Assembly (NCBI RefSeq): GCF_006351005.1
Contig: NZ_VENP01000023.1
Location: 1-48,414, forward strand
Reading direction: 5' to 3'
From: Miniimonas arenae
GTDB lineage: Bacteria; Actinomycetota; Actinomycetes; Actinomycetales; Beutenbergiaceae
DNA length: 48,414 bases
Of the stretch, positions 7,866 to 48,414 are shown one piece after another. Under the pieces are notes generated by a model. The model saw nothing but the letters and a program-made list of their open reading frames with translations. It ran no database searches and was not told the origin of the DNA. The first letter of the stretch is position 1. Every line of letters starts with the position of its first letter. The translations under genes were made by a program, and so were the position numbers.

Positions 7866-10271
7866 TCACCCCCCGACGTAGGCCGCCAGGTGCACCCCGG
7901 TGAGCGTCGACCGCGCGGCCACGAGCTCGGCCGGCGGTCCCTCGAAAACGACGCGTCCGCCGTCGTGCCCCGCCCCGGGGCCCAGGTCGATGATCCAGTC
8001 CGCGTGCGCCATCACGGCCTGGTGGTGCTCGATCACGATCACGGAGCGCCCGCCGTCGACGAGGCGGTCCAGCAGCGCGAGCAGCTGCTCGACGTCGGCG
8101 AGGTGCAGGCCGGTCGTGGGCTCGTCGAGGACGAGCACGCCGCCCGTCTCACCCATGTGCGTCGCGAGCTTGAGGCGCTGACGCTCGCCGCCCGAGAGCG
8201 TGGTGAGCGGCTGACCGAGCGTGAGGTATCCCAGGCCGACGTCGGCCAGCCGGGTGAGGATCGCGTGCGCGCTCGGAACACGGGCCTCACCAGCCGCGAA
8301 GTACTGCGCTGCCCCCGTCACCGACATCTCGAAGACGTCGCCGATCGAGCGCCCGCCGAGCTGATAAGACAGGACTGCCGCCTGGAAGCGTCGGCCCTCG
8401 CAGTCCTCGCACGGGCTGGAGACGGTGCCCATCGTGGGCAGGTCGGTGAAGGTGACCCCGGCGCCGTTGCACGTGGGGCACGCACCCTCCGAGTTCGGGC
8501 TGAACAGCGCCGGCTTCACCCCGTTCGACTTCGCGAACGCCTTCCGGACCGGCTCGAGCAGGCCCGTGTAGGTCGCGGGGTTGGAGCGCCGGGAGCCGCG
8601 GATCGCGCCCTGGTCCACCACCACGACGCCCTCGCGCCGCGCGAGCGACCCGTGCACGAGCGAGCTCTTGCCCGACCCCGCGACGCCGGTCACCACGACC
8701 AGCGCGCCGAGCGGGACGTCGACGTCGACGTCGCGCAGGTTGTGCGTGCGCGCACCGCGGATCTCCAGCCGGCCCGACGGCGAGCGCACCTGCGCCTTCA
8801 GCCTCGCCCGGTCGTCGAGGTGCCGCCCGGTCAGCGTGCCGCTGACGCGCAGACCGTCGAGCGTTCCCTGGAACACGACCTCGCCCCCGGCGGACCCCGC
8901 GAGCGGGCCGAGGTCGATCACGTGGTCGGCGATTGCGATCGTCTCCGGCTTGTGCTCGACGACGAGCACCGTGTTGCCCTTGTCGCGCAGCTGGAGCAGC
9001 AGGTCGTTCATGCGCTGCACGTCGTGCGGGTGCAGCCCGATCGAGGGCTCGTCGAAGACGTAGGTCACGTCGGTGAGCGAGGAGCCCAGGTGCCGGATCA
9101 TCTTGGTGCGCTGCGCCTCGCCGCCGGACAGCGTGCCCGCGGCCCGGTCCAGCGAGAGGTAGCCGAGGCCGATCGACACGAACGCGTCGAGCGTGTCCCG
9201 CAGCGACTCCAGCAGGGGCGCGACGTTCGGCGCCTCGAGCGTGCGCACCCAGGCCGCGAGGTCGCTGATCTGCATCGCGCACACGTCGGCGATGCTGCGG
9301 CCGTCGATGAGCGAGGACCGCGCAGTCTCGTTGAGTCGGGTGCCGTGGCAGGCGGGACAGGCCGTGAACGTGACGGCCCGCTCCACGAAGGCGCGGACGT
9401 GCGGCTGCATCGCGTCCACGTCCTTGCTGAGGAACGACTTGCGGATCTGCGGGATGAGGCCGACGTAGGTGAGGTTGATCCCGTCGACCTTGATCTTGGT
9501 GGCCTCGCGGTGGAGGAGGTCGTGCAGCTCGCGCTCGCCGTAGTCGCGCAGCTTCTTGTCGGGGTCGAAGTAGCCGACGCCGCGGTAGATGCGCCCGTAC
9601 CAGCCCTCCATCGAGTAGCCCGGGATCGTGAGCGCGCCCTCGTTGAGCGACCTGTCGGCGTCGAACAGCGCGGTGAGGTCGATGTCGCTCACGCTGCCGC
9701 GACCCTCGCACGGCGCGCACATGCCGCCCTGGATACTGAAGCGGCGCACCTCCTTCACGGTCGTCTCGCCCTTCTCGACCGTGACGGCCCCCTGGCCGGA
9801 GATGCTGGCGACGTTGAAGGAGAACGCGTTCGGGGCCCCGATGTGCGGCTGACCGAGCCGGGAGTACAGGATCCGCAGCAGCGCGTTGACGTCGGTCGCG
9901 GTGCCGAGCGTGGAGCGCGGGTTCGCGCCCATCCGCTCCTGGTCGACGATGATCGCGGTGGTGAGGCCGTCGAGCACGTCGACGTCCGGCCGCGACTGGG
10001 AGGACATGAAGCCCTGCAGGAACGCGGGGTAGGTCTCGTTGATGAGGCGCTGCGACTCCGCGGCGATCGTGTCGAACACGAGCGAGCTCTTGCCCGAGCC
10101 CGAGACCCCGGTGAACACCGTGAGGCGGCGCTTCGGGATCTCGACGTCGACGTTCTTGAGGTTGTTCTCGCGCGCGCCGAGCACGCGGATGGTGTGGTGG
10201 CCGTCGGCGGGGTGCATCGGTGCGGCGGGACGGGTCGGGTTGGCCGCGTCGATCGGGCTCGTGGGGGACAT
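7866..10271 (-). CDS. UvrA-like excinuclease ABC-ATPase paralogue
   Basis: 801 aa twin-ATPase of the UvrA family, shorter than housekeeping UvrA (about 950). Each half has Walker A (GVSGSGKSS near 56 and GVAGSGKSS in the second half) and the signature LSGGE (LSGGEAQR and LSGGERQR). Zinc-finger cysteine pairs are present: CAPC and CPAC in the first half, CPTC...CEDC in the second. The UvrB-binding region seems reduced. Paralogues of this size (UvrA2/DrrC type) are linked to DNA-damaging drug tolerance; the role here is inferred. ATG 10271 is preferred to upstream starts because AGGAG lies eight bases before it. It is a single gene; its 3' end converges on the broken MgtE stub. Confidence 0.9.
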   Translation of the reverse strand: MSPTSPIDAANPTRPAAPMHPADGHHTIRVLGARENNLKNVDVEIPKRRLTVFTGVSGSGKSSLVFDTIAAESQRLINETYPAFLQGFMSSQSRPDVDVLDGLTTAIIVDQERMGANPRSTLGTATDVNALLRILYSRLGQPHIGAPNAFSFNVASISGQGAVTVEKGETTVKEVRRFSIQGGMCAPCEGRGSVSDIDLTALFDADRSLNEGALTIPGYSMEGWYGRIYRGVGYFDPDKKLRDYGERELHDLLHREATKIKVDGINLTYVGLIPQIRKSFLSKDVDAMQPHVRAFVERAVTFTACPACHGTRLNETARSSLIDGRSIADVCAMQISDLAAWVRTLEAPNVAPLLESLRDTLDAFVSIGLGYLSLDRAAGTLSGGEAQRTKMIRHLGSSLTDVTYVFDEPSIGLHPHDVQRMNDLLLQLRDKGNTVLVVEHKPETIAIADHVIDLGPLAGSAGGEVVFQGTLDGLRVSGTLTGRHLDDRARLKAQVRSPSGRLEIRGARTHNLRDVDVDVPLGALVVVTGVAGSGKSSLVHGSLARREGVVVVDQGAIRGSRRSNPATYTGLLEPVRKAFAKSNGVKPALFSPNSEGACPTCNGAGVTFTDLPTMGTVSSPCEDCEGRRFQAAVLSYQLGGRSIGDVFEMSVTGAAQYFAAGEARVPSAHAILTRLADVGLGYLTLGQPLTTLSGGERQRLKLATHMGETGGVLVLDEPTTGLHLADVEQLLALLDRLVDGGRSVIVIEHHQAVMAHADWIIDLGPGAGHDGGRVVFEGPPAELVAARSTLTGVHLAAYVGG

Positions 10272-10360
10272 CGCGCTCTCCTGGTGTCGATCTGGCGCCC
10301 TCGCCGACCGCGCCGGGTGCGGTCCGGCCGAGCGTACGGCGTCGGTGCGACACTGACGCC

Positions 10361-11155
10361 ATGGTGATGCCACCGTTCTCGATCGACGACGGCCGCGCCG
10401 TCGGACCGTCCTACGGCCTGGTCCTGACGCGGGGCGCCCGCGACGCCGTGCTGGAGTCCCTCTCGGTCGCGCGGTTCAGCGGCTGGGTGTCCCCGGCGCC
10501 CACCGGCGAGGAGCCCTGGACCGTCGCGGTCGCCGAGGACCCGCTCGGGCACGTCGCCTCCGAGCGACGGACGCTGTCCGAGCTCGCGCGCGACCTCGCC
10601 CGGGACCTCGCGCCGGGGTCCGGCTCGCCGGACGACGCCTCGCCCGAGCACGTGCCCGACGGCGAGCGCGAGTCCGCCGAGACCCTCGCCCCGGAGGGGG
10701 CGAGCGGTCGGCCCGAGGTGATCTGCGCCGTCGTGCGCGCCGAGACCCTGCTCACGATCGCGGCCTTCGACGGCGAGCAGCAGCTGGTCGACTACCTCTC
10801 CGACGCGCACGCGGCGCGGCCGGGCGACGAGTTCGCGTGGGGGCCGGAGGGCGCGCACGGCGGGCGGGCGCTCGCGCGGCTCAGCGGGCGACCCGACGCC
10901 GGCGAGGACGCGGTCGAGCTGCTGGGGGAGGAGCTCGGAGAGAGCGAGAACGAGTCCGAGCGGATCATGGCGCTCGCGCGGCTGCTCGGCTGGCCGGAGT
11001 GGCTGGTGGCGGTCGTCGGGCTGCCGAAGCGGGTCGCCGGCGGCCCGCCGGTCGAGGACTGGCAGCGCCTGCGGGCGGGTCGGAGCGGCCTGACCGGGCG
11101 GCTCGCGGCGCGGGCGGCGCGCACCGTGCGCCGGCGGGACCTCACGGAGAGCTGA
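10361..11155 (+). CDS. Hypothetical protein
   Basis: 264 aa soluble protein with no motif I recognise. Residues 1-80 (IDDGRAVGPSYGLVLTRGAR...) and 125-265 look folded; the middle (about 85-120) is a low-complexity acidic linker with SPEHVPDGERESAETLAPEG, one instance of the DGE micro-repeat discussed in the findings. The C-terminus is arginine-rich. ATG 10361 is preceded by GACACT at a six-base distance, the usual leaderless spacing. It is divergent from the UvrA-like gene across 89 bases and 128 bases upstream of thymidine kinase, with no evidence of a shared operon. Confidence 0.6.
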   Translation: MVMPPFSIDDGRAVGPSYGLVLTRGARDAVLESLSVARFSGWVSPAPTGEEPWTVAVAEDPLGHVASERRTLSELARDLARDLAPGSGSPDDASPEHVPDGERESAETLAPEGASGRPEVICAVVRAETLLTIAAFDGEQQLVDYLSDAHAARPGDEFAWGPEGAHGGRALARLSGRPDAGEDAVELLGEELGESENESERIMALARLLGWPEWLVAVVGLPKRVAGGPPVEDWQRLRAGRSGLTGRLAARAARTVRRRDLTES

Positions 11156-38197: not shown

Positions 38198-38362
38198 CCG
38201 CGTCTGAGGTGGACGTGGCGATGGCAGCATCCACGTCGACCGCGCCGAGGACAGCGCAGCCGCGTCTGAGGTGGACGTGGCGACGGCAGCGTCCACGTGA
38301 GACGCGTCGGGAACAGCGCAGCCGCGTCTGAGGTGGACAAGGCGACCGCGGCGAGCCCAACG
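38198..38362. repeat. Array of 62-bp hairpin repeats (two full units and one partial)
   Basis: Units begin with CCGCGTCTGAGGTGGAC at 38198, 38260 and 38322, exactly 62 bases apart. The first two differ at few positions; the third diverges after about 17 bases. Each full unit holds an inverted repeat, GTGGACG ... CGTCCAC in the second unit, extended outward by GTCTGAG/GTGAGAC with two mismatches. The array lies between the stop of the phosphatase gene and the promoter of the hydrolase gene. The core also occurs at 12631-12660, so this is a dispersed, REP-like family with local amplification. Confidence 0.85.
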
Positions 38363-38364
38363 AC

Positions 38365-39075
38365 TCACCGAGCGGGTGGAGCTGCTTCCTCGGTGACAGC
38401 CTCACCTTGCGGCGGCTCGACCACCTCGGCGGCCGCGCCGTCGGACGTGGGATCGGCGAGCTCCGGACCGCCGAGCGCCGGCTCGTGCCAGCGCTCGAGG
38501 TGCCACTCACCCGGCTCGCCGACGAGGACGGCGGCACCGGTGTTCGACACCGGCGCGTAGGCGACGTCGCGGGCGTGGGCGTTGCGCGCGCGGGCCGCGA
38601 CCCACACGCGGATCATCGCGCCGTGCGTGACGAGCGCCGCGACCTCGGCGCCGGACTCGGCCGCCTCGGCGACCACCCCGTCGAACCGGGCGAGGGTCTG
38701 CGCGCCGTCCTCCTCGCCGTCGGGCATGCGCGTGCTGAGGTCCCCGTCGATCCAGCCGAGGGCGATGCGCAGGTACGTCTGGACGTCCTCGTGGTGGTTG
38801 GACATCTCCAGCGAGCCGGCGCCGATCTCGCGGATCTCTCGGCGCACCTGGACGGGCAGCTCGAGCGCCCGGGCGAGGGGCGCGGCGGTCTGCTGCGTCC
38901 GGACGAGGGTCGAGGCGTAGAGCGCGCCGATCCCGGCGTCGCCGAGCGTCTCGACGAGGGCATCGGCCTGGGCGCGCCCGAGGTCGGTGAGGTCGGCTCC
39001 GGGTTCGGCGGTGTCGAGGTGGTGGCCGACGTTGGAGTGGGTCTGGCCGTGCCGGACGAGGATCAGGCGCACCAC
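38365..39075 (-). CDS. Histidine phosphatase family protein
   Basis: 236 aa. LILVRHGQTHSN carries the phospho-histidine (RHG near residue 8), ASTLVRTQQTAAPLA the second arginine, EIREIGAGSLEM the acid, and LVTHGAMIRVW the second histidine, so all active-site residues are present. Substrate could be a sugar phosphate, nucleotide or cofactor. The C-terminal 35 residues are acidic and disordered. The first two codons are both GTG; with TAGGGT at 39079-39084, the second one (39072) is at the usual six-base leaderless distance, so the true start may be 39072. Confidence 0.87.
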   Translation of the reverse strand: MVRLILVRHGQTHSNVGHHLDTAEPGADLTDLGRAQADALVETLGDAGIGALYASTLVRTQQTAAPLARALELPVQVRREIREIGAGSLEMSNHHEDVQTYLRIALGWIDGDLSTRMPDGEEDGAQTLARFDGVVAEAAESGAEVAALVTHGAMIRVWVAARARNAHARDVAYAPVSNTGAAVLVGEPGEWHLERWHEPALGGPELADPTSDGAAAEVVEPPQGEAVTEEAAPPAR

Positions 39076-39143
39076 GCCACCCTACGTCGCGGCGCGTGAG
39101 GCAGGACCGGCTGACGGATGTGTGCGGCCCTGCACCGCGAGGG

Positions 39144-39641
39144 CTACGCGCCGGTGAGGATGCGCAGCGGACCCTCGTCCGCCGTCGGGACCTCGAACCC
39201 GTCGAGGTACCGCACGGCCAGGTCGGCCGGGACGATCACGTCGTGCGGCCCGTTGCCCTCGCGCCCGCGCAGCCGCTCGAGCACGACGGCGCGCGGCGTC
39301 GCGAGGTAGTAGACGACAGGCTCGACGGCGAGCGGCCGCAGCACCACGCGGTAGGACTCGCGCGAGGCTCGCGACCAGAACGAGGTGTCGACCGCGACTC
39401 GCGCGCCGTCGCGGACGAGCGCGACGAGGCGCCGCTGCAGCTCGGCGTGGATCGAGCGCGCGGCGTCGTCCGGCAGGGGGTGGACGCGGTGGCCGCGGGC
39501 CCACGCCTCCTCGTCGAAGGAGAGCACGACGGCGCCGCCGGCGGCGAGCCGGCCGGCGAGCGTCGACTTTCCGGAGCCCGCGGGCCCGCAGATGAGGACC
39601 ACCCGGTCCTCGGGTCCGGGCGCGGGCGCGGGTGACGTCAC
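39144..39641 (-). CDS. P-loop kinase-like ATP-binding protein (AAA_33)
   Basis: 165 aa. Walker A GPAGSGKSTLAGRL is near residue 18; RVAVDTSFWSRASRESYR holds the second acidic motif, and RLRGREGNGPHDVIVP a lid-like region. The family phosphorylates small substrates or acts on nucleic acid ends; the substrate here is unknown. GTG 39641 is chosen because TACCGT (39649-39654) lies seven bases upstream; GTG 39650 would add three residues. It is divergent from the DUF4304 gene. Confidence 0.82.
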   Translation of the reverse strand: MTSPAPAPGPEDRVVLICGPAGSGKSTLAGRLAAGGAVVLSFDEEAWARGHRVHPLPDDAARSIHAELQRRLVALVRDGARVAVDTSFWSRASRESYRVVLRPLAVEPVVYYLATPRAVVLERLRGREGNGPHDVIVPADLAVRYLDGFEVPTADEGPLRILTGA

Positions 39642-39680
39642 GACGGTCACGGTACTGGCGGGACGTGCGATGCTCGGCGG

Positions 39681-40196
39681 ATGGACGCGGCGACGCGGGT
39701 CGAGGGCGTGTGCGCGGAGGTGTTCGGGCAGCGCGGCTTCCGCAAACGCGCCCGGAGCTGGTATCGGACCACCTCCGCGGGCGAGTACCAGGTGGTCAAC
39801 CTGCAGCGCTCGCCGTGGGGGAGCGGGAGCTGCTACCTCAACCTCGGGTGGGACGTGGACGCGTCGTCGTTCCGGTCGGAGAACCGGTGTCTCCTCCGGC
39901 TCCGCGCGCAGGAGACGGGCGTGGTCGAGCCGACCCGCCTGGTGCGAGGCGACGGGGTGACCGAGGTCGAGGTCCCCGGGACCGCACTGCTGGACGAGGA
40001 GGTGAGCAGCACGATGCCCGAGGCCGCGTTCGCCGCGGAGGTGCGCCGCGCCGTCGTCCTTCCGGTGGCGGACCTGCTCGAACGCACGCCGTCGATCGTC
40101 GACCTCGTGCCGTTCCTCACCGCCAAGCCGTGGTTCGCGCTCCGTGACGCTCGCGCGGAGCTCGCCCGACGGGGCCACGAGCTCCCGGCGGGGTGA
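39681..40196 (+). CDS. DUF4304 family protein
   Basis: 171 aa. EVFGQRGFRKRARSWYRTTSAGEYQVVNLQRSPWGSGSCYLNLGW matches the DUF4304 start (L...GF.R.G..F.....V..VV.FQ.S.....F.INLG). Function unknown; members are often scattered single genes. ATG 39681 is preceded by GATGCT at six bases, a weak leaderless -10. The stretch after it (40197-40369) shows no further gene. Confidence 0.75.
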   Translation: MDAATRVEGVCAEVFGQRGFRKRARSWYRTTSAGEYQVVNLQRSPWGSGSCYLNLGWDVDASSFRSENRCLLRLRAQETGVVEPTRLVRGDGVTEVEVPGTALLDEEVSSTMPEAAFAAEVRRAVVLPVADLLERTPSIVDLVPFLTAKPWFALRDARAELARRGHELPAG

Positions 40197-40369
40197 CTCG
40201 GGCAGCTCGGGGTGACTTCGGCGTGATGTCGAGGAGACGCTGACACGCCGCGCCGACCCGGGAAGAACCTCTCGTACGCAGTGGCGCCGGAGATGTCGAG
40301 ATCCGCCGCGCTGCTTCGTCCCCCGGATGAGCGCGGCCAGAATGGCCGCATCGATCGAAGGAGCCGACG

Positions 40370-40777
40370 ATGGCCAAGTACCTCCTGCTCAAGCACTACC
40401 GCGGCGCCCCGGCCGCCGAGAACGACGTGCCGATGGACCGCTGGACGCCCGAGGAGGTCGCGGCGCACATCCAGTTCATGCAGGACTTCGCGTCGCGGCT
40501 GGAGGAGTCGGGGGAGTTCGTCGACGCGCAGGCGCTCGCGCCCGAAGGCACGTGGGTGCGGTTCGACGGCGAGGGTCGCCCGCCGGTCACCGACGGCCCC
40601 TTCGCCGAGACGAAGGACCTGATCGCGGGCTGGATGGCGATCGACGTCGACTCCCGCGAGCGCGCCCTCGAGCTCGCCGCGGAGCTGTCCTCCGCACCCG
40701 GGGCGGGCGGCCGGCCGATCCACGAGTGGCTCGAGCTGCGGCCCTTCCTCAGCGAGCCGCCGACCGTCACGGAGTGA
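40370..40777 (+). CDS. YCII-related DGPF-domain protein
   Basis: 135 aa. The YCII-like ferredoxin fold carries TDGPFAETKDLIAGWMAIDVDS, the DGPF motif that names the group. GAAGGAG stands before ATG 40370. The stop overlaps the GTG of the sigma-factor gene by four bases. DGPF proteins are regular partners of ECF42 sigma factors and are often their targets; the biochemical role is not known. Confidence 0.9.
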   Translation: MAKYLLLKHYRGAPAAENDVPMDRWTPEEVAAHIQFMQDFASRLEESGEFVDAQALAPEGTWVRFDGEGRPPVTDGPFAETKDLIAGWMAIDVDSRERALELAAELSSAPGAGGRPIHEWLELRPFLSEPPTVTE

Positions 40778-41940
40778 CTGCGGTGGACGAGGGCCTCGTC
40801 CGGTCGCTCACGCCGTCGGTGATCGGGGCCCTCGTCCGCCGCGGCGCGGACTTCGCCGCCGCCGAGGACGCGACGCAGGAGGCGCTCGTCGAGGCGCTGC
40901 GCCGCTGGCCGAGCGATCCGCCGCGGGACCCGACGGCGTGGCTCGTCACGGTCGCGTGGCGCAAGTTCCTCGACGCCACCAGGGCCCAGACGTCGCGGCG
41001 CGAGCGGGAGCTGCGCGTGGAGCGCGAGCCCGCGGCGCCCGTCGGGTCCGCCCACGACGACACGCTCACGCTGTACTTCCTGTGCACCCACCCGAGCCTC
41101 ACGTCCGCGTCGGCCGTCGCGCTGACGCTGCGCGCGGTCGCGGGACTCAGCACGCGGCAGATCGCCGAGGCGTACCTCGTCCCCGAGGCGACGATGGCGC
41201 AGCGCATCAGCCGCGCCAAGCGGACGGTCGCGGGCGTGCGACTCGACGAGCCCGGCGACGTCGGGACGGTCCTACGGGTGCTCTACCTCGTCTTCAACGA
41301 GGGGTTCTCGGGCGACGTCGACCTCGCGGCGGAGGCCATCCGCCTCACGCGGCAGCTCGCGGCGCTCGTCGACCACGAGGAGGTGCTCGGCCTGCTCGCC
41401 CTCATGCTGCTGCACCACGCGAGGCGAGAGGCTCGGCGAACGGCGGACGGCGCCGTCGTGCCGCTCGCCGAGCAGGACCGCACCCGCTGGGACACCGCCG
41501 CGATCGCGGAGGGCGTCGCACTGCTGCAGTCGGCGCTCGCCCGCGACCGCCTCGGGGAGTACCAGGCGCAGGCGGCGATCGCCGCCCTGCACGCGGACGC
41601 CCGCACGACGGCGGAGACCGACTGGGTGCAGATCGTCGAGTGGTACGACGAACTGGTAAGCCTCACGCCCAACCCCGTCGCCCGACTCAACCGCGCGGTC
41701 GCGGTCGGGGAGGCGGACGGGGCCCGCGCCGGGCTCGCCGCGCTCGACGAGCTGGACCCCGGGCTGCCGCGGTACGCCGCGGTGGCCGCGCACCTGCACG
41801 AGCGCGACGGCGACCTCGTCACCGCGGCCGCGCTGTACGCCGAGGCGGCGCGGGCGGCGACCAGTGCGGCGGAGCGCGACCACCTCGTGCTGCAGGCGGC
41901 ACGGCTCAACCAGCGCGCGGCGGCATCCCCGGCGCCGTAG
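40774..41940 (+). CDS. ECF42-type RNA polymerase sigma factor with C-terminal extension
   Basis: 388 aa. Region sigma2 is at about 1-75 (GADFAAAEDATQEALVEALRRWP) and sigma4 at about 105-155 (VALTLRAVAGLSTRQIAEAYLVPEATMAQRISRAKRTV). The remaining 230 residues form the helical DUF6596/TPR-like extension found in ECF42 proteins, with LVFNEGFSG and ALLPLNPVA-like ELVSLTPNPVARLNRAVAVGEADG. No anti-sigma gene is nearby, as expected: the extension is thought to control activity. GTG 40774 overlaps the DGPF stop. The 3' end overlaps the leftward phosphotransferase gene by 35 bases. Confidence 0.92.
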   Translation: MTAVDEGLVRSLTPSVIGALVRRGADFAAAEDATQEALVEALRRWPSDPPRDPTAWLVTVAWRKFLDATRAQTSRRERELRVEREPAAPVGSAHDDTLTLYFLCTHPSLTSASAVALTLRAVAGLSTRQIAEAYLVPEATMAQRISRAKRTVAGVRLDEPGDVGTVLRVLYLVFNEGFSGDVDLAAEAIRLTRQLAALVDHEEVLGLLALMLLHHARREARRTADGAVVPLAEQDRTRWDTAAIAEGVALLQSALARDRLGEYQAQAAIAALHADARTTAETDWVQIVEWYDELVSLTPNPVARLNRAVAVGEADGARAGLAALDELDPGLPRYAAVAAHLHERDGDLVTAAALYAEAARAATSAAERDHLVLQAARLNQRAAASPAP

Positions 41941-42739
41941 GCGCACCAGGCGCGGCAGGCGCACCAGACGAGCCGGGTTCGACGGCGAGCGCGTCCGCCC
42001 AGGCGGCCGAGTGCCGCTCGACGTACCCTGCGGCGCCCGCCCAGTGCGCGCCGTGACCGCTGGTGTACATCGAGCCCCACGGCTCGACGCCCGACTCGTG
42101 GGAGCGCCGCAGCAGGTCGTACATGGCCCGACAGCGCTGGGTCATCGCGTCGGGCAGGGCGCGGCGCAGCGCGGTGTCGGCCCCGTACCCGTCGACGAAC
42201 GCGGCAAGGCGGCGTGCGGCGTGGGCCGGGCGCTCGCCGTCGACCAGGTGCGCGAAGGACTGCGCGGCGTAGGCGAGGTCCCACAGGCGTGAGCTCGGTC
42301 CTGCGCCGTCCCAGTCGATGAAGACGAGGCGCTCGCCGTCGAGCACGAGGTTCCAGGGCGCGAGGTCCTGGTGGCACATGAGGTCCGGCTCCGCCGCGGG
42401 CAGCAGCACGGGGTGCTCGCGAGGCAGGGCGAAGCCCACGCTCGCGTCGTGGATCGACCGCACGAGGCCACCGACGCGTCGCAGGAGCGCGTCGTCCAGC
42501 GGCTGCCGTGCCATCGCGAGCTCGCCCGGCACGTACTCGAGCACGAGGCGTCCGCGCTCGTCCCGGCCGAGGGGGCGCGGCGCGTCGACGCCGCGTCCGC
42601 GCAGGTGGTGCAGGTAGGCCAGCACCGTCGGAGTGGCCTCGGTCCACGGCTTGCGGACCGTGTCACCCACGCGCACGACGGCGCCGCTCGCGTTCCCGCC
42701 GGCGAGCGGCTCCTCAGGGGGTTCGGGAGGCGGCGGCAT
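41906..42739 (-). CDS. Aminoglycoside phosphotransferase-family kinase
   Basis: 277 aa APH/choline-kinase-like protein. The catalytic loop is MCHQDLAPWNLVLDG (Brenner-type HxDxxxxN) and the metal-binding aspartate is in LVFIDWDGAGPSSRLWDLAYA. The C-terminal tail is a Gly/Ala/Pro repeat (SGAPAAPGAPTAPG). The substrate may be an antibiotic or a metabolite. ATG 42739 is selected because TACCGT (42746-42751) lies six bases upstream. It overlaps the 3' end of the MFS gene, on the same strand, by 26 bases, and the 3' end of the sigma-factor gene on the other strand. Confidence 0.87.
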   Translation of the reverse strand: MPPPPEPPEEPLAGGNASGAVVRVGDTVRKPWTEATPTVLAYLHHLRGRGVDAPRPLGRDERGRLVLEYVPGELAMARQPLDDALLRRVGGLVRSIHDASVGFALPREHPVLLPAAEPDLMCHQDLAPWNLVLDGERLVFIDWDGAGPSSRLWDLAYAAQSFAHLVDGERPAHAARRLAAFVDGYGADTALRRALPDAMTQRCRAMYDLLRRSHESGVEPWGSMYTSGHGAHWAGAAGYVERHSAAWADALAVEPGSSGAPAAPGAPTAPGMPPRAG

Positions 42740-44042
42740 CGCTCGACGGTACCGACGTCGAGGCACGACGAGCGACCAGCCCGCTGAGCCGCTCGGACAT
42801 GACCAGGCCGAGGACCGCGAGGACGCCGACGAACAGCGGGAAGATCCACAGGCCCACCCAGCCCGACAGGACGCCGAACAGCGGCGGCATGAAGGTCGAG
42901 CCGCTGTAGGCCGCGGCCATCTGGATACCGATGATGGCCTGGGAGCTGTTGCGGCCGAAGTTCACCGGGGTGGAGTGGATGATCGCGGGATAGATCGGCG
43001 CGCTGCCGAGGCCGGCGACGACGAGTCCCGCGAGTGCGAGGACCGGCGTCGGCAGCGGCAGGGCGATGAGCACGACGCCGAGCGCGACCGTGAGGAAACC
43101 GCCGCGGATGAGGGCGCGATCGCCGACGCGGTCGGCCACGAAGCCCGCGAGGAAGCGACCGCCGGTGATGCCGAGCAGGTACAGCGAGGCGAAGGCGGCC
43201 GCGGTCGCGGGCGTCACGCCGCGATCGGTGACGAGGTAGGTCGACGCCCACAGGATCGAGGTGCTCTCGAGTGCGCAGTACGCGAAGAAGGCGAGCAGCA
43301 CCAGGGGGACGCCGGGGATCCGCAGGGCGGTCGCCAGGGGGACGTGACCACCGCGCGTGGTGGGCTCGTGCGCGGGGGCGGGCTCGCCGTCGTGCGTGAA
43401 GGTGGGCTCGCCGTCGTGCGTGGAGGGCTCGGCGTCGTGCGCGGGAACGCGCGGATGCACCTTGCCCCACAGCGGGAGGCTCGCGAGGAGGAGGCCGGTG
43501 AGCACGACCTGCACCACGCCGATGATGCGGTAGGCGCCGGACCAGCCCAGGCCGGACGTGATCGCGTGGCTCATGACGAAGGGGCTGATCGAGGCGCCGA
43601 CGCCCCAGAAGCTGTGCAGCCAGTTCATGTGGCGTGCGGCGTAGTGCAGGGCGACGTAGTTGTTGAGCGCGGCGTCGACGGCACCGGCGCCGAGCCCGTA
43701 CGGGATCGCCCACAGGCAGAGCACCCAGAACGATCCGGTGACCGAGAAGCCGAGCAGCGCCGCGGCGGTCATGCCGACGCTGACCGCCGTGACGAGGCCG
43801 GCGCCGAACCGGCGGGTGAGCCGCTCCGACAGGAGGCTGGAGGCGATGGTGCCGCCCGCGATGAGCATCGTGATGATGCCTGCGTAGGCGAGCGGGACGG
43901 CGAGGTCCTCGTGCATTACGGGCCAGCCGGAGCCGACGAGGGAGTCCGGCAGCCCGAGGCTGACGAAGGCGACGTAGATGATCGCCAGGAGGAGGGAGTA
44001 CATCGAGCGGGGCCTCTCGAGGGCGTCGTGCGGTCGGTCCAT
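42714..44042 (-). CDS. MFS transporter with a repeat-bearing central loop
   Basis: 442 aa, 12 predicted helices. LGLPDSLVGSGWPVMHEDLAVPLAYAGII at the start and LHSFWGVGASISPF are typical of MFS members related to sugar/FucP-like or drug carriers. The cytoplasmic loop between helices 6 and 7 contains VPAHDAEPSTHDGEPTFTHDGEPAPAHEP, that is, three copies of an HD(G/A)EP unit. The divergent TetR gene suggests induced export. ATG 44042 is the likely start; a GTG at 44051 would add three residues but lies in the operator palindrome. A possible -10, AAACGT, is at 44050-44055. Confidence 0.87.
   Translation of the reverse strand: MDRPHDALERPRSMYSLLLAIIYVAFVSLGLPDSLVGSGWPVMHEDLAVPLAYAGIITMLIAGGTIASSLLSERLTRRFGAGLVTAVSVGMTAAALLGFSVTGSFWVLCLWAIPYGLGAGAVDAALNNYVALHYAARHMNWLHSFWGVGASISPFVMSHAITSGLGWSGAYRIIGVVQVVLTGLLLASLPLWGKVHPRVPAHDAEPSTHDGEPTFTHDGEPAPAHEPTTRGGHVPLATALRIPGVPLVLLAFFAYCALESTSILWASTYLVTDRGVTPATAAAFASLYLLGITGGRFLAGFVADRVGDRALIRGGFLTVALGVVLIALPLPTPVLALAGLVVAGLGSAPIYPAIIHSTPVNFGRNSSQAIIGIQMAAAYSGSTFMPPLFGVLSGWVGLWIFPLFVGVLAVLGLVMSERLSGLVARRASTSVPSSDAAASRTP
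42746..42751 (-). promoter_or_regulatory. Putative -10 box of the phosphotransferase gene (leaderless)
   Basis: TACCGT on the minus strand is followed by six bases and ATG 42739. It lies inside the last codons of the upstream MFS gene, giving the phosphotransferase its own promoter. Confidence 0.45.
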
Positions 44043-44043
44043 C

Positions 44044-44069
44044 GTACGCACGTTTATGGACGTACGTAC
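44044..44069. promoter_or_regulatory. Palindromic operator between the MFS and TetR genes
   Basis: The 26-bp site is symmetric at 20 of 26 positions, with outer arms GTACG...CGTAC and inner ACGT...ACGT around a central T/A. It covers the likely MFS -10 and lies 25 bases before the TetR start. Size and symmetry match sites of TetR-family dimers, so the divergent regulator probably binds here and controls both genes. Confidence 0.65.
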
Positions 44070-44093
44070 ACACTCCGGGTAGCGTCACGTCTT

Positions 44094-44771
44094 GTGACGA
44101 CCATGCACGACGGCGAGCCCGCCCTGGGAGAGGAGCGCTCGCCGTCGGCGTCGCGTGGGGGAGAGGAGCGCTCGCCGTCGGGGTCGGCTTCACGTGGTCC
44201 GGGCGAGACGTCACGCCGGGGTTCCCGCCAGGGCAGGCGCAACGACCCCGGCCGACGCGACCGCATCGTCGACGCGTGCCTCAAGGTCATCGCACGCGAC
44301 GGCGTCGCGGGGACGTCCCACCGCAGGGTCGCGGCGGAGGCCGACGTGCCGCTCGGCGCCATGACGTACTACTTCGACGGCATGGGGGAGCTGCTGCACG
44401 AGGCGTTCGCGCGGTTCGCGACCACGGTCAGCGATCGGTTCGAGGCGCGGATGGCGCAGGCGAGGTCGCGCGAGGAGGCGCGCGACGCCGTCGTGGCCCT
44501 CATCCTCGAGGACGTGTTCACCAGCCAGCGCGAGCTCGTGCTGTCCCACGAGCTCTACACGCTCGCGGCGCGCGACGCCGCGTACCGCGACCTCACGACG
44601 GCGTGGATGGCTCGCAGCCGGGCGGCGCTCGAGCGCCACTTCGATCCGGAGACCGCGCGCATGCTGGACGCGCTGATCGAGGGGCTCACGATCCATCGTG
44701 CGCTCGACGCGCAGGCGCGGGATGCGCGGGAGGTGGAGCTCGCCGTCGGGCGCCTCACCGCGTCGAAATAG
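44094..44771 (+). CDS. TetR-family regulator with a repetitive N-terminus
   Basis: 225 aa. The first 55 residues are disordered and contain HDGEPA and two copies of a GEERSPS(G/A) unit, encoded by a 21-bp run at 44128-44148 repeated at 44161-44181. The helix-turn-helix follows: RRDRIVDACLKVIARDGVAGTSHRRVAAEADVPLGAMTYYFDGMGELLHEAF. The ligand domain has VFTSQRELVLSHELYTLAARD. It should repress the divergent MFS gene and itself through the palindrome at 44044-44069. GTG 44094 sits eight bases after TAGCGT; ATG 44103 is an alternative. Confidence 0.9.
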   Translation: MTTMHDGEPALGEERSPSASRGGEERSPSGSASRGPGETSRRGSRQGRRNDPGRRDRIVDACLKVIARDGVAGTSHRRVAAEADVPLGAMTYYFDGMGELLHEAFARFATTVSDRFEARMAQARSREEARDAVVALILEDVFTSQRELVLSHELYTLAARDAAYRDLTTAWMARSRAALERHFDPETARMLDALIEGLTIHRALDAQARDAREVELAVGRLTASK

Positions 44772-44808
44772 ACACGGCGTCGGCGGGCGACTCCGCCAAC
44801 ATCGCGAG

Positions 44809-45744
44809 GTGAGCGCACCCACTGCTCGGCCGGCGGACGCCGTTCCGGACCCGAATCTCGTCTCCGCACTGCTGCGGGAGCAGGTCCCTGAGCTGGCCGA
44901 CCTGCCCGTGCGGGCGAGCGAGACCCAGGGGAGCAGCAACTGGGTGTTCCGGGTCGGGGACGCGCTGGCCGTGCGCCTGCCGCGGTCCGACCGCTACGTC
45001 TGGGACCTGGAGAACGAGCTGCACTGGCTGCCGCGCCTCGCGCCTCACCTGCCCGTGGCCGTGCCCGAGGTGGTCGCCGTGGGCGGGCCGAGCGTGCTCT
45101 TCGCCCGGCCGTGGACGGTGGTGACCTGGGTGCCGGGCGAGCTGCCGCTGCCGACTTCGCTGGACGGGCCGCGGTAGGCGCGCCTGGCCCGGTCGCTGGG
45201 CGCGTTCGTCCGGAGCCTGCACCTCGTCGACCCACCCGACGTGCCCGCCGGGTCCGAGCACTGGGGCTACCGCTGCGGAGAGCCGGTCACCGACGCGATC
45301 GACAGGTGGGCCGAGGACGCGGCCGACGCGCTGGCCGATCTGTTCGACCCGTCCGGGGTCCGCGAGGCGTGGCGTCGGGTGCGCGAGCTCCCGGGAGGGT
45401 CGGGGGCGGCGTGTGTCGTGCACACCGACCTCTCGGAGGAGAACCTTCTCGTCGGGCCCGACGGCGAGCTCGCCGGCGTCGTCGACTTCGGCGGCACTGG
45501 TGTGGGAGACAGGTCCGTGGACCTGCTCTACGCGTGGAGCATCTTCGACGACCCTGCTCGAGAGGTCTTCCGGGACGCCGCCGGGGCGGACGAGGCGACG
45601 TGGACCCGTGCCCGGGCGTGGGCGTTCGTCGGTCCCGGCCTGCTCACGATCGCGAGCTATCGCCACACCATGCCCGCTCGGGTCGAGCGACTCACCGTGA
45701 TGGTGGAGAGGATCGCAGCGGAGGTCGGCGTGCGGCTGCGGTGA
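44809..45744 (+). pseudogene. Aminoglycoside phosphotransferase-family gene interrupted by one amber codon
   Basis: From GTG 44809 the frame reads GSSNWVFRVGDALAVRLPRSDRYVWDLENELHWLP and reaches TAG at 45175-45177 (codon 123). The same frame then continues without gap: ARLARSLGAFVRSLHLVDPP, the catalytic loop CVVHTDLSEENLLVGPDG and VVDFGGTGVGDRSVDLLYAW, to a stop at 45744. A full protein would be about 311 aa of the APH family. The stop falls between the N-lobe and the catalytic C-lobe, so neither half can work unless the codon is read through. A CAG-to-TAG change is the simplest cause. CAACAT lies six bases before the start. Confidence 0.85.
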
Positions 45745-45830
45745 GGGCGCGCGGTCCTGCGCACCTCTGCCGCAAGATGGGGTCCAGGCCCGCGACGAGG
45801 CGGGGTGGAGCTCAGGAGAGGGTGTCGAGG

Positions 45831-46496
45831 ATGAGGCGGGGGTCGCTCCCACTGACCGTGGCGATGGTGGCGTGGGGGTTGTCGGCGTGCGCGGTCGCGA
45901 CGGGAGGGACGGCGGAGAGCGCTGAGTCGCCCTCGCCCGCGTCGGCACCGACGACATCGGCGGCTACCGTCACAAGCGTGCCTACGTTGAGCGCGGCGAG
46001 CATCGGCTGGCTCGAGGAGCTGAGGACCAACCTCCGCGAGGCCAGGGAGCAGTCGGCGCAGGAGCGCGCAGAAGCCGAGCCGATCCTCCCGATGCCTCCC
46101 GGCTCCACGTGGGGGCTGAACGAGGCGTTCCCGGAGCTGGAGTCACAGATCTCCGCGCTGGAGTCGGGCGACGATCTCCCCGACGGTGCGTCACAGCCGA
46201 CAAAGGTCTGGTACGAGGAGGGCTACTTCAAGGCGAAGATGGCGCTCGACTGGCAGTGTGCCTGGTTGTCGGAGGCGGTGAGCCAGTACGACCTGGGGAA
46301 CGTCGAGGACGCCGAGTACGCCGTCGCGCAGCTCCGGTCGTTCGAGGACAACCCGCTCGTCTCCCACTTCCCCGACTACGGGTTCTACCTGGCCACCTAC
46401 GTGGACCCGTTGGGTCCGGGGGACACGTCGGTCGCGGCGGACACGCTGCGGTACTGCTCCACCGCGTCACTGGTGCCCGCGTACCGCGAGCAGTGA
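45831..46496 (+). CDS. Putative lipoprotein, unknown function
   Basis: 221 aa. A type II signal peptide MRRGSLPLTVAMVAWGLSAC with lipobox LSAC marks it for lipidation. A Ser/Ala/Thr linker (SAESPSPASAPTTSAAT) leads to a domain with no recognised family: LEELRTNLREAREQSAQERAEAE is helical, and YEEGYFKAKMALDWQCAWLSEAV and VDPLGPGDTSVAADTLRYCSTASL hold two cysteines that could pair. AGGAGAGGG lies upstream; GTG 45822 in the same frame is an alternative start. Located outside the membrane if the signal is real. Confidence 0.75.
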   Translation: MRRGSLPLTVAMVAWGLSACAVATGGTAESAESPSPASAPTTSAATVTSVPTLSAASIGWLEELRTNLREAREQSAQERAEAEPILPMPPGSTWGLNEAFPELESQISALESGDDLPDGASQPTKVWYEEGYFKAKMALDWQCAWLSEAVSQYDLGNVEDAEYAVAQLRSFEDNPLVSHFPDYGFYLATYVDPLGPGDTSVAADTLRYCSTASLVPAYREQ

Positions 46497-46521
46497 CGGT
46501 CGACGTCCTCGGAGGACGTGT

Positions 46522-47031
46522 TCACTGAGGGTAAGGGCTGAGCCAGTTGTGCTGGTGGAGGACGACCACCGCGGTCCACAGCAACACGGAGAAGAGCGCA
46601 AGGGAGACGCCGAACCACGTCAGCGTGACGCGCTTGGCCGCAGCGAGGCATGCGAAGACCGGAGCCGCCAGAGCGACCGCGGCCCTGAGCCAGGGCCTCG
46701 CGTCCGGAATCTCCCCGACCAGCACCATCAGCAGGAGCAGAACTGCTGTCGCCGAGGCCGCGAAGCCCCAGAACGCGCACGTGCGTACGACTGACGAGGA
46801 GTCAGCGCGCGACGCTCCGGCACGCCACATCACCGCCGAGATGAATGACAGCGACACGCTGATGAGGAGCGCGACGATCGTGCTGGTGTCGGGGAAGGGG
46901 AGCATGTCCCAGAGACTCCAGGCTGCTCCCGCAGCCAAGATGCTCGCGACGCCAGCGAGCGCGGCCGCGACCTCCCGCGCGGCTCGAACTGGACTTCGGC
47001 TTCGGCCTTCTTCAGCGAGCTGCCGGGTCAT
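46522..47031 (-). CDS. Four-helix membrane protein, unknown
   Basis: 169 aa. After an arginine-rich N-terminus (MTRQLAEEGRSRSPVRAAREVAA) there are four hydrophobic helices (about 24-43, 52-72, 84-106, 118-165 as two). No motif is recognised. ATG 47031 overlaps the 3' end of the upstream deoxyribosyltransferase-like gene by 20 bases, implying coupled translation and possibly a joint function. Convergent with the lipoprotein gene at 45831. Confidence 0.65.
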   Translation of the reverse strand: MTRQLAEEGRSRSPVRAAREVAAALAGVASILAAGAAWSLWDMLPFPDTSTIVALLISVSLSFISAVMWRAGASRADSSSVVRTCAFWGFAASATAVLLLLMVLVGEIPDARPWLRAAVALAAPVFACLAAAKRVTLTWFGVSLALFSVLLWTAVVVLHQHNWLSPYPQ

Positions 47032-47362
47032 CGTGTAATCGAGTCGAGCCGGTGAAAGAGACGGGCTTACCGTTGGCGCGGGCGTAGGCGATCTCACGGC
47101 TGGTGGACTCGCCGATGTAGCCGCCCGGATTGACCACCAGGACACGGTCGGCGAGGTCGATCTTTCGCAGGTGCAGGGCGTCCAGAGCGGCCTTCTGCTC
47201 GGCTGTGATCGGCTCGCCCCCGCCGAGGCCGTCAGCTCGACTGAACACACCTGGCGCGACGACGATCGCGCCGGCGAACGTGAGATCGCGGTTCGCGGCG
47301 GCCATCTCCTCGACGAAACGCGTCGACCCGCAGAGGCACACGATCTCGGAACGGTCGGGCAC
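47012..47362 (-). CDS. Nucleoside 2-deoxyribosyltransferase-like protein
   Basis: 116 aa single-domain protein. IVCLCGSTRFVEEMAAANRDLTFAGAIVVAPGVF opens the fold and VLVVNPGGYIGESTSREIAYARANGKPVSF carries the conserved G.IG.ST..EI.YA segment of the nucleoside 2-deoxyribosyltransferase-like group, with a possible catalytic glutamate. Many such short proteins are of unknown function and some belong to nucleotide-related defence modules. GTG 47362 is used; no strong ribosome site is seen, consistent with coupling to the small gene 21 bases upstream. Confidence 0.8.
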   Translation of the reverse strand: MPDRSEIVCLCGSTRFVEEMAAANRDLTFAGAIVVAPGVFSRADGLGGGEPITAEQKAALDALHLRKIDLADRVLVVNPGGYIGESTSREIAYARANGKPVSFTGSTRLHDDPAAR

Positions 47363-47383
47363 GTCAGGCGCCCACGATGGTGT

Positions 47384-47506
47384 TCACCGACGACCCGAGT
47401 CGATGAGTGCGAACACGTCGTCGTCGGTCACCACGGTGGTGCTCGTCGCTACGAGTCGGCCGTCGGCGTCACGCTCGAGCCGGGCCAAATCGATCGGGGC
47501 CTTCAT
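47384..47506 (-). CDS. Small protein, 40 aa, leader gene of the operon
   Basis: The frame from ATG 47506 encodes MKAPIDLARLERDADGRL and VATSTTVVTDDDVFALIDSGRR, an acidic soluble peptide with no known family. TAGTTT at 47513-47518 lies six bases before the ATG, the window's usual leaderless promoter geometry, which is the main reason to call it real. The next gene starts 21 bases after its stop. It could be a small protein in its own right or an upstream frame that sets translation of the next gene. Confidence 0.5.
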   Translation of the reverse strand: MKAPIDLARLERDADGRLVATSTTVVTDDDVFALIDSGRR

Positions 47507-47512
47507 GAGATC

Positions 47513-47518
47513 AAACTA
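47513..47518 (-). promoter_or_regulatory. Putative -10 box of the small-gene operon (leaderless)
   Basis: TAGTTT on the minus strand is followed by six bases and ATG 47506. Confidence 0.45.
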
Positions 47519-47609
47519 CCCGTCGCACCCCATTTGCTGCTGTCGCGAGCGTGCAGACAGGCCTTGCGGTGGGCGACGGCGAGCTCGGGCATGCAGCACA
47601 CTGCTGGCC

Positions 47610-48167
47610 ATGCGAGTGCGCCCGTCACGCTGTGCGGCACTGACCGCCGGGGCCCTGGTGGCAGGGCTGGTCTCTTCATGCGGCACCTCGTCGACTTCTG
47701 CGTCTCGACACGAGCTGTTCGCGAGCCTCAACGAGATCTCGCAGGCGAGCGATCTGGTGATCGTGGGACGTACCGACCCGCAGGACGTCGACTCTCCAGC
47801 ACGGGACTGGCCGGACCTCACCGTCTCAACGGCGGAAGTTCTGGAGGTGTTGGCGCACGGCAGCACCGACGATGCCAACGTCACGACGTCCGGCTCGCTC
47901 GTCCGTGTGTGGCAGACGGGGAGGAACGACAACGCCGACGCGCCGATGCTTACCCTCGAGCCGGGCGGTGTCTATCTGCTGTACCTGACTCATATGGGGC
48001 TCGAGGGAGCCGACGACAGCGACTACTACATCACGGGCGCGACGGCCGGCGTCTATGTCCTGTCCGGCGGCATGGAGCTGAGCGAGACCGCCGTCTTCGT
48101 TCGTGCTGACCCGACGTCGGACGATACGTTGCCCAGAGAGGTCACGCTCGGGGAGGCCCGCGACTGA
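47610..48167 (+). CDS. Putative lipoprotein, unknown function
   Basis: 185 aa. The signal peptide MRVRPSRCAALTAGALVAG continues LVSSC with a lipobox-type cysteine, then GTSSTSAS. The mature part has SDLVIVGRTDPQDVDSP, VSTAEVLEVL, VWQTGRNDN and LTLEPGGVYLLYLTHM, a beta-rich pattern like small secreted proteins that measure or bind cell-surface ligands; no family is named with confidence. CACACT lies seven bases before ATG 47610. It is the last gene before the dif site. Confidence 0.72.
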   Translation: MRVRPSRCAALTAGALVAGLVSSCGTSSTSASRHELFASLNEISQASDLVIVGRTDPQDVDSPARDWPDLTVSTAEVLEVLAHGSTDDANVTTSGSLVRVWQTGRNDNADAPMLTLEPGGVYLLYLTHMGLEGADDSDYYITGATAGVYVLSGGMELSETAVFVRADPTSDDTLPREVTLGEARD

Positions 48168-48236
48168 GTTCGGGTGCGTCGCCGCGGTGGCTTCAGGGGA
48201 GACGCGGGGGGTGTCACCCCGGACGTCAGATCTTGG

Positions 48237-48264
48237 AACTGACATAATGCACATTATCGGCGTC
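48237..48264 (-). other. dif: dif-like XerC/XerD recombination site
   Basis: Read on the minus strand, the 28 bases are an 11-bp arm GACGCCGATAA, a 6-bp centre TGTGCA and an 11-bp arm TTATGTCAGTT. This is the layout of chromosomal dif (E. coli: GGTGCGCATAA, TGTATA, TTATGTTAAAT) and is very close to the actinobacterial consensus as I recall it (CCGATAAT...ACATTATGTCA). It is AT-rich in GC-rich surroundings and lies in a gene-free stretch. It is most likely the chromosomal dif and so the terminus; a dif-like site of a mobile element is the alternative. Confidence 0.8.
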
Positions 48265-48333
48265 TTGCACAGCAATGGGCTGAGCAGCGCCTTGGCCCAC
48301 ACTCGCCGAGGCCTTGCGGTTCGCCCCATATCC

Positions 48334-48414
48334 GGCTCTTCCCAGTTGAGGGTGTAGCCGGCTGCCGGGCAGGCGCGGGGTCGGTCGGCGCGTCGGTGCC
48401 TGGGTAGAGGTCGA
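48334..48414 (+). mobile_element. Left end of an ISL3-family element (continues beyond the window)
   Basis: GGCTCTTCCCAGTTGAGGGTG at 48334 is a classic ISL3 terminal repeat start, and the following 60 bases match, with small differences, the truncated left end at 86-160. The element would run to the right, out of the window, with its transposase in the plus direction. It begins 70 bases past the dif site. The 8-bp target duplication expected for ISL3 cannot be checked, as the right end is not here. Confidence 0.75.

Follow-up and report, generated by a model that had tools for sequence, protein, structure and literature searches.

Actinobacterial dif sites and AIMS were reportedly treated by Hendrickson and Lawrence in 2006 and 2007. 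On the scheme presumed here from established Xer biology, FtsK would load onto polar G-rich sequences (with a GGGGGAG core) that point at dif and would move the terminus to dif, activating XerD together with XerC, and the two recombinases would then recombine two copies of dif across its 6-bp centre, so that chromosome dimers are resolved. In four Corynebacterium genome papers, the AIMS G(A/T/C)GGGGGA and (T/C)GGGGGAG are given as leading-strand biased and are used for locating dif, and two of the papers term the AIMS octamers or the dif consensus actinobacterial (PMC2830990, PMC3164646, PMC3022926, PMC3219685). Since those papers already print actinobacterial AIMS containing GGGGGAG, we do not regard this heptamer as a new motif. 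The locus described here resembles its Corynebacterium counterparts in having a 28-bp dif that fits the actinobacterial consensus, a probable position opposite the origin, and, on the side assembled, polar guide sequences; it differs in belonging to another family, in coming from a draft genome with one side of dif assembled, and in that the heptamer GGGGGAG ranks first. The comparison with E. coli is of a similar kind: the 11-6-11 layout and 19 of 28 bases are the same, and the family's FtsK-gamma matches solved gamma domains, whereas the guide motif is presumably GGGGGAG here and KOPS (GGGNAGGG) there, and the recognition helix of FtsK gamma is also different.

The 28-bp site and the insertion sequence beside it

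The window, by which we mean the whole 48,414-nucleotide stretch of Miniimonas arenae that was analyzed, is the entire contig C65 of a 3.40-Mb draft genome (G000; 148 contigs, 99.7% complete); other genomes, contigs, and loci are designated by G, C, and L numbers. The initial annotation, made from the letters alone, had quoted a 28-bp site with two 11-bp arms and a 6-bp centre at its right edge, and the site is exactly as quoted except that it lies on the minus strand. Positions 48237-48264 read AACTGACATAA TGCACA TTATCGGCGTC on the plus strand, and the minus-strand reading, GACGCCGATAA-TGTGCA-TTATGTCAGTT, is a complete 11-6-11 dif (GACGCCGATAATGTGCATTATGTCAGTT), an assignment that draws on pattern matches, shuffles, and relatives. 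The presumed XerC arm GACGCCGATAA (48254-48264, minus strand), towards the contig end, shares 7 of 11 bases with dif of E. coli K-12, the centre TGTGCA (48248-48253, minus strand) shares 4 of 6, and the presumed XerD arm TTATGTCAGTT (48237-48247, minus strand), towards the window interior, shares 8 of 11, given the arm naming and the E. coli letters that we take to be the accepted ones. At up to three mismatches the dif pattern matches once in the window and in none of 100 dinucleotide shuffles. A search of the whole draft for other copies, suggested as a check in the annotation, returned this copy alone, with one match each for the 28-mer and its 22-bp core (each at ≤3 mismatches) and none for a reversed control pattern.

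The setting had been called gene-free, and by our reading dif is indeed intergenic, with an ORF ending 69 bp before it and an IS end beginning 69 bp after it. This upstream ORF encodes 185 aa (47610-48167, plus strand) if started at the ATG at 47610, which is our choice, and has an N-terminus that looks lipoprotein-like by eye; the mechanical call of the ORF starts upstream at 47130. A second mechanical ORF (47826-48329, minus strand) overlaps dif and is antisense to the 185-aa ORF, and neither of the two has a match in Pfam.

Contig C65 stops 150 bp past dif, within an ISL3-type IS end (48334-48414, plus strand) that consists of GGCTCTTCCCAGTTGAGGGTGTAG and subterminal sequence, begins with its inverted repeat at 48334 on the XerC side, and has its body cut by the contig end. 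The same 85 bp terminate contig C145 of the draft, so the break can be put down to a repeat. The 24-bp end is one base removed from the end of G016:C9:1-1415 and two from that of a copy in G040, and each of these two elements has an ISL3 transposase; no DDE_Tnp_ISL3 transposase match is found anywhere in the G000 assembly, where the body of the IS, as a repeat, may have been collapsed and so be absent. A plasmid search with the window tail gave two partial matches, both to the IS end, and a diverged (81%) related IS-end sequence lies near the left contig end (85-156, plus strand). Contig C145 also carries, at L035:1139-3888, a protein that matches the PADLOC Aga_REase models and, next to it, a short prokaryotic Argonaute matching the pAgo_I model, in that order.

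Insertions of the IS1202 family lie 5 bp from the XerC arm of dif in one orientation (PMC10132070). The likeness is that an IS adjoins chromosomal dif, and the difference is that the ISL3-type end here lies 69 bp away and that relatives show no fixed geometry. Targeting of dif by ISL3-type elements, as known for the IS1202 family in Acinetobacter, would explain the position of the IS, and ISL3-type ends do occur about 70-510 bp from dif in three genera of one family (G000; G010, at C1:2802292; and G006, at C1 near 2361150), to be set against 33 pattern matches across 24 family genomes (a count that excludes the G006 copy, found by similarity search). Such targeting is nonetheless unlikely, since the ends lie 69 bp away on the XerC side in G000 and about 125 bp (G010) and 470-500 bp (G006) away on the XerD side, and the latter two, which have flanking sequence in common, probably go back to one ancestral insertion. 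The ISL3 transposase matches listed are all more than 10 kb away from the best dif match of their own genome (one of them, G028:C15:81810, has an extra dif-like site at a distance of 9 kb), and the 119 named dif loci listed contain no ISL3 end at up to five substitutions. With sides and distances so variable, we set targeting of dif by ISL3-type elements aside as unsupported. It is plausible that, as the annotation had it, a position at the terminus accounts for both the IS insertion and the low-conservation genes nearby.

Conservation of dif and its neighbourhood in relatives

We scanned 59 genomes, including G000, which is left out of the figures for the 58 relatives. At up to three mismatches, the full 28-mer is present in 20 of the 58, with one copy in each, and the 22-bp core in 55, once in 42 and more than once in 13, and it is absent from G033, G037, and G053. 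All 23 same-family relatives have the core (19 of them once), the three-mismatch match in G001 being doubtful. The annotation's appeal to the general dif layout and the actinobacterial form is well founded, the 11-6-11 layout being kept and the form of the clade matched, and the dif described here is an ordinary, well-conserved site of an already-known kind. G028 has seven core matches and G046 four, which lie on a single strand within each genome and mostly have a changed right arm; the right arm also differs from the family form in the three extra dif-like sites that we inspected (L381, L383, and L020).

The position of the core in relatives points to the terminus. Nine genomes were checked for dnaA, and in the five where a single (near-)chromosomal contig carries both dnaA and dif the distance between them, as a fraction of the contig, is 0.50 (G010), 0.49 (G011), 0.47 (G002), 0.51 (G004), and 0.51 (G017); in the other four, which include G000, dif and dnaA are on separate contigs. 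Compared in 1-kb pieces, window positions 13000-38200 (plus strand) are colinear with about 16.5 kb of G004 on the same side of dif, without counterparts there for the window at about 23-28 kb and 31-32 kb, and in G004 the end of this colinear block abuts dif. For the remaining approximately 10 kb of the window before dif (38200-48236), the same comparison finds nothing corresponding in G004 up to 100 kb from dif, and 38.2-48.2 kb have weak matches only (≤39 bits, for the 44-kb piece) in G011. A stretch of 98 bp within them (47384-47481) matches G003 at 84%, about 0.4 kb from dif and on the same side. An ABC ATPase gene (7866-10370, minus strand), which its domains suggest to be UvrA-like, lies 38 kb from dif on the XerD side, but in 9 of 11 loci from relatives the UvrA-like gene is found on the XerC side, no more than about 10 kb from dif; because it sits on the opposite side of dif here, we consider the terminus neighbourhood to be locally rearranged.

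GC skew, which the annotation had put forward as a check, has little deciding value. The window is mixed, and among relatives a clear sign change of the mean skew across dif is seen in G004 and G019 and a marginal one in G011, with none in G010 and G006 and a higher mean past dif in G002; in the window and these six relatives the skew is too weak to serve as a deciding test.

GGGGGAG polarity, FtsK, and the nature of the site

In these high-GC genomes the AIMS core GGGGGAG is a far better test for the terminus than GC skew. The motif was discovered in relatives and afterwards tested elsewhere: when the 6-, 7-, and 8-mers that occur 40 times or more in the ±100 kb around dif of six family genomes were screened, GGGGGAG took the top polarity score, with 420 copies pointing toward dif and 12 away (hereafter toward:away), and permutations of its letters reached about 3:1 at most. 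The interval in which the polarity switches includes dif in all six genomes, the narrowest running from -811 to +540 bp. The window contains 14 copies (between 10924 and 44390), starting at 10924, 18660, 21727, 23290, 27590, 28265, 31242, 31346, 32874, 38084, 39817, 40510, 44157, and 44384; all are on the plus strand and point toward dif, with none on the minus strand. This 14:0 polarity is the strongest evidence within the window for a terminus at its right edge; the switch itself is not visible in the G000 assembly because only 150 bp of contig follow dif.

The bias is not a codon effect, since it persists in lagging-strand genes and between genes. By a crude ORF caller, leading-strand genes of the six genomes give 241:5, lagging-strand genes 79:3, and intergenic DNA 100:4, and in the window three copies lie in leading-strand genes, seven are antisense in lagging-strand genes, and four are between genes. 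The polarity also extends to other families (216:5 within ±20 kb of dif in ten genomes) and to the named dif loci, each of up to 8 kb (532:6 among the 119 listed, and 342:4 among the first 80 listed). Along the chromosome of G010, density and polarity rise toward dif, from 21:5 in 200 kb near the origin, through 21:2 and 16:1 in mid-arm segments of 100 kb each, to 60:2 in 200 kb at dif. The variant AGGGGAG is polar as well (70:11 in the six family genomes and 124:6 among 80 named loci listed).

The annotation had proposed the polarity of FtsK-guiding octamers around the site as a check, and on the one side of dif in the contig such polarity is seen for the actinobacterial core and not for KOPS of the E. 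coli type (GGGNAGGG), which score 5:5 in the window. In six relatives KOPS reach 155:110, of which 57:11 belong to GGGGAGGG, the polar part, which overlaps the GGGGGAG heptamer core. As not polar in the window, E. coli KOPS were rejected, and so was a B. subtilis-type octamer (1:1 in the window). The control behaves in the opposite way, with 10:0 for KOPS and 2:1 for GGGGGAG in 50 kb around dif of E. coli K-12. A matching change may exist in FtsK. The FtsK-gamma domain is found above cut-off on contig C1 of G000 (C1:107460-107636), and 15 relatives have a match to it. Its recognition helix, presumed to include the DNA-touching residues, is RVGFAKAGRLMD in G000 and likewise in the five of these relatives for which we read it (L248, L251, L252, L253, and L255), as against RIGYNRAARIIE in the solved chain 2j5p, which we take to be that of E. 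coli. The difference in the helix would fit a different guide motif, and GGGGGAG is presumably the sequence read by FtsK in Actinomycetota. As to the recombinases, XerD is above its curated cut-off on contig C61 of G000, an XerC-like candidate on C1 is below its own, as are the XerC-model matches in all 12 genomes searched, and the window itself has no match to the XerC or XerD models; XerC and XerD would be expected to bind and recombine at 48237-48264.

Taken together, the single copy, its conservation, the half-chromosome position of dif in five relatives, the synteny with G004, and the 14:0 polarity support a chromosomal dif, with the right edge of the window at the replication terminus, as had been proposed. 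We consider the 28-bp site almost certainly the chromosomal dif of an actinobacterium, and it is very probably the sole place where copies of the circular chromosome are separated before division. The dif anchors the right edge of the contig to the terminus, the reading from raw sequence was sound, and replication likely crosses the window from left to right, toward dif. The site could instead be a dif-like attachment site of a plasmid or of an integrated element that exploits Xer, rather than the chromosome's own dif. Core matches are multiple in some relatives (the seven of G028 and the four of G046), plasmids bear dif-like sites beside a recombinase element, and contig C65 ends at an IS end common to C145. 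We nevertheless regard this as highly improbable, given that the draft contains no second copy and that the site has both arms intact, that its left flank is syntenic with the chromosomal dif flank of G004, that the window has no match to dif-linked recombinases any more than to the Xer models, and that all 14 AIMS copies aim at it. The extra sites inspected (L381, L383, and L020) also differ from it in the right arm, yet intact dif sites too can adjoin elements. A phage search with window positions 46500-48414 gave no match. That the site is a functionless chance match is a negligible prospect, for which we found no support and against which stand 0 of 100 shuffles, the core in 55 of 58 relatives, and the polarity of GGGGGAG.

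A recombinase-HTH-recombinase-like element beside dif

The real lead from this analysis is not the ordinary dif of the window but an element that adjoins dif in other genomes. In some relatives, G000 not among them, dif or dif-like sites adjoin a tyrosine recombinase, an HTH protein, and a recombinase-like protein, and beside dif in some relatives a block with the core TGCANCNGATG(A/C)A begins 14 bp after the 28-mer. We searched for this core in the 45 bp next to dif, allowing one mismatch, on the XerD side and, reading outward, on the XerC side. Of the 24 family genomes, 6 have it on the XerD side (five at offset 14, G023 at 19), as do 4 of the 114 named loci listed (three at offset 14; L274, probably the same contig as G023, at 19). 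On the XerC side it is present in one (L273, offset 14) of the 119 named loci listed and in none of the 24 family genomes. Among control segments, 14 of 19512 contain it. These counts lean toward the core because it was derived from some of the same flanks; L353, L367, L273, and the plasmids were left out of its derivation.

All three proteins are encoded in Arthrobacter sp. ISL-30 (L316), where dif is followed by a tyrosine recombinase of 379 aa at +223, a Cro/C1-type HTH protein of 110 aa at +1368, and a 513-aa protein at +1690 that has no Pfam or NCBIfam match. Matches to the L316 proteins lie beside dif in 9 of the 119 named loci listed, L316 counted. In L316, L353, L355, L287, and L347 all three are matched on the XerD side, L273 has the recombinase and HTH protein on the XerC side, and L313, L367, and L264 have fragments. 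Where the first recombinase is matched, in seven loci (with a fragment in L313), the match starts 212-273 bp away from dif. The palindrome beside dif is a different one in L287 and L347, and none was seen in L264. Within the family, a recombinase match adjoins dif in G012 (L064) and a fragment in G009 (L042), and the window has no match to the proteins of the element.

The element also occurs on plasmids, where tblastn finds the recombinase in 194 records. In all five plasmids examined an HTH gene comes after the recombinase, and, except in L385, a third gene annotated as hypothetical or XerD-like comes next; L385 has an intact-looking second set. Two of the five (L381 and L383) have, about 280 bp upstream, a dif-like site whose right arm is altered, with a palindrome 14 bp beyond it, and the other three have no dif-like site that we could find, with a palindrome-type end kept about 250 bp upstream in L385 and, more weakly, in L382. 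One of the extra core matches of G028 (L020) shows the same 14-bp offset, without a recombinase match within its 3 kb. A search of viral contigs and phages with the end sequence of the element gave no match. Among the open-access papers listed by a literature search, a scope outside which most subscription journals fall, the dif-exploiting elements are those of Vibrio, Legionellales, and Acinetobacter, with none of the recombinase-HTH-recombinase-like kind.

One reading of these observations, to which we give an even chance, is that dif of Actinomycetota serves as the docking site of a recombinase/HTH/recombinase-like mobile family, whose copies mostly have a TGCATCNGATGCA-like end palindrome 14 bp beyond the 28-mer, usually on the XerD side, and which is found also on plasmids, some with their own dif-like site; the dif of the window would then be a vacant target. 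If true, the sites at which chromosome dimers are resolved would be among the habitats of a transposon family throughout a phylum. The window does have a 13-bp palindrome (GGGGTGACACCCC) on the XerD side of its dif, which we rejected as a remnant of the element since comparable palindromes occur in 55 of 2281 controls and 6 of 114 dif flanks, a difference that is not significant. A MatP-like, terminus-wide role of the palindrome was likewise rejected, scores above 20 being reached only beside dif (in G006 and G019) in six family stretches. In L316 the palindrome is found also 3.6 and 5.6 kb from dif, in accord with element ends.
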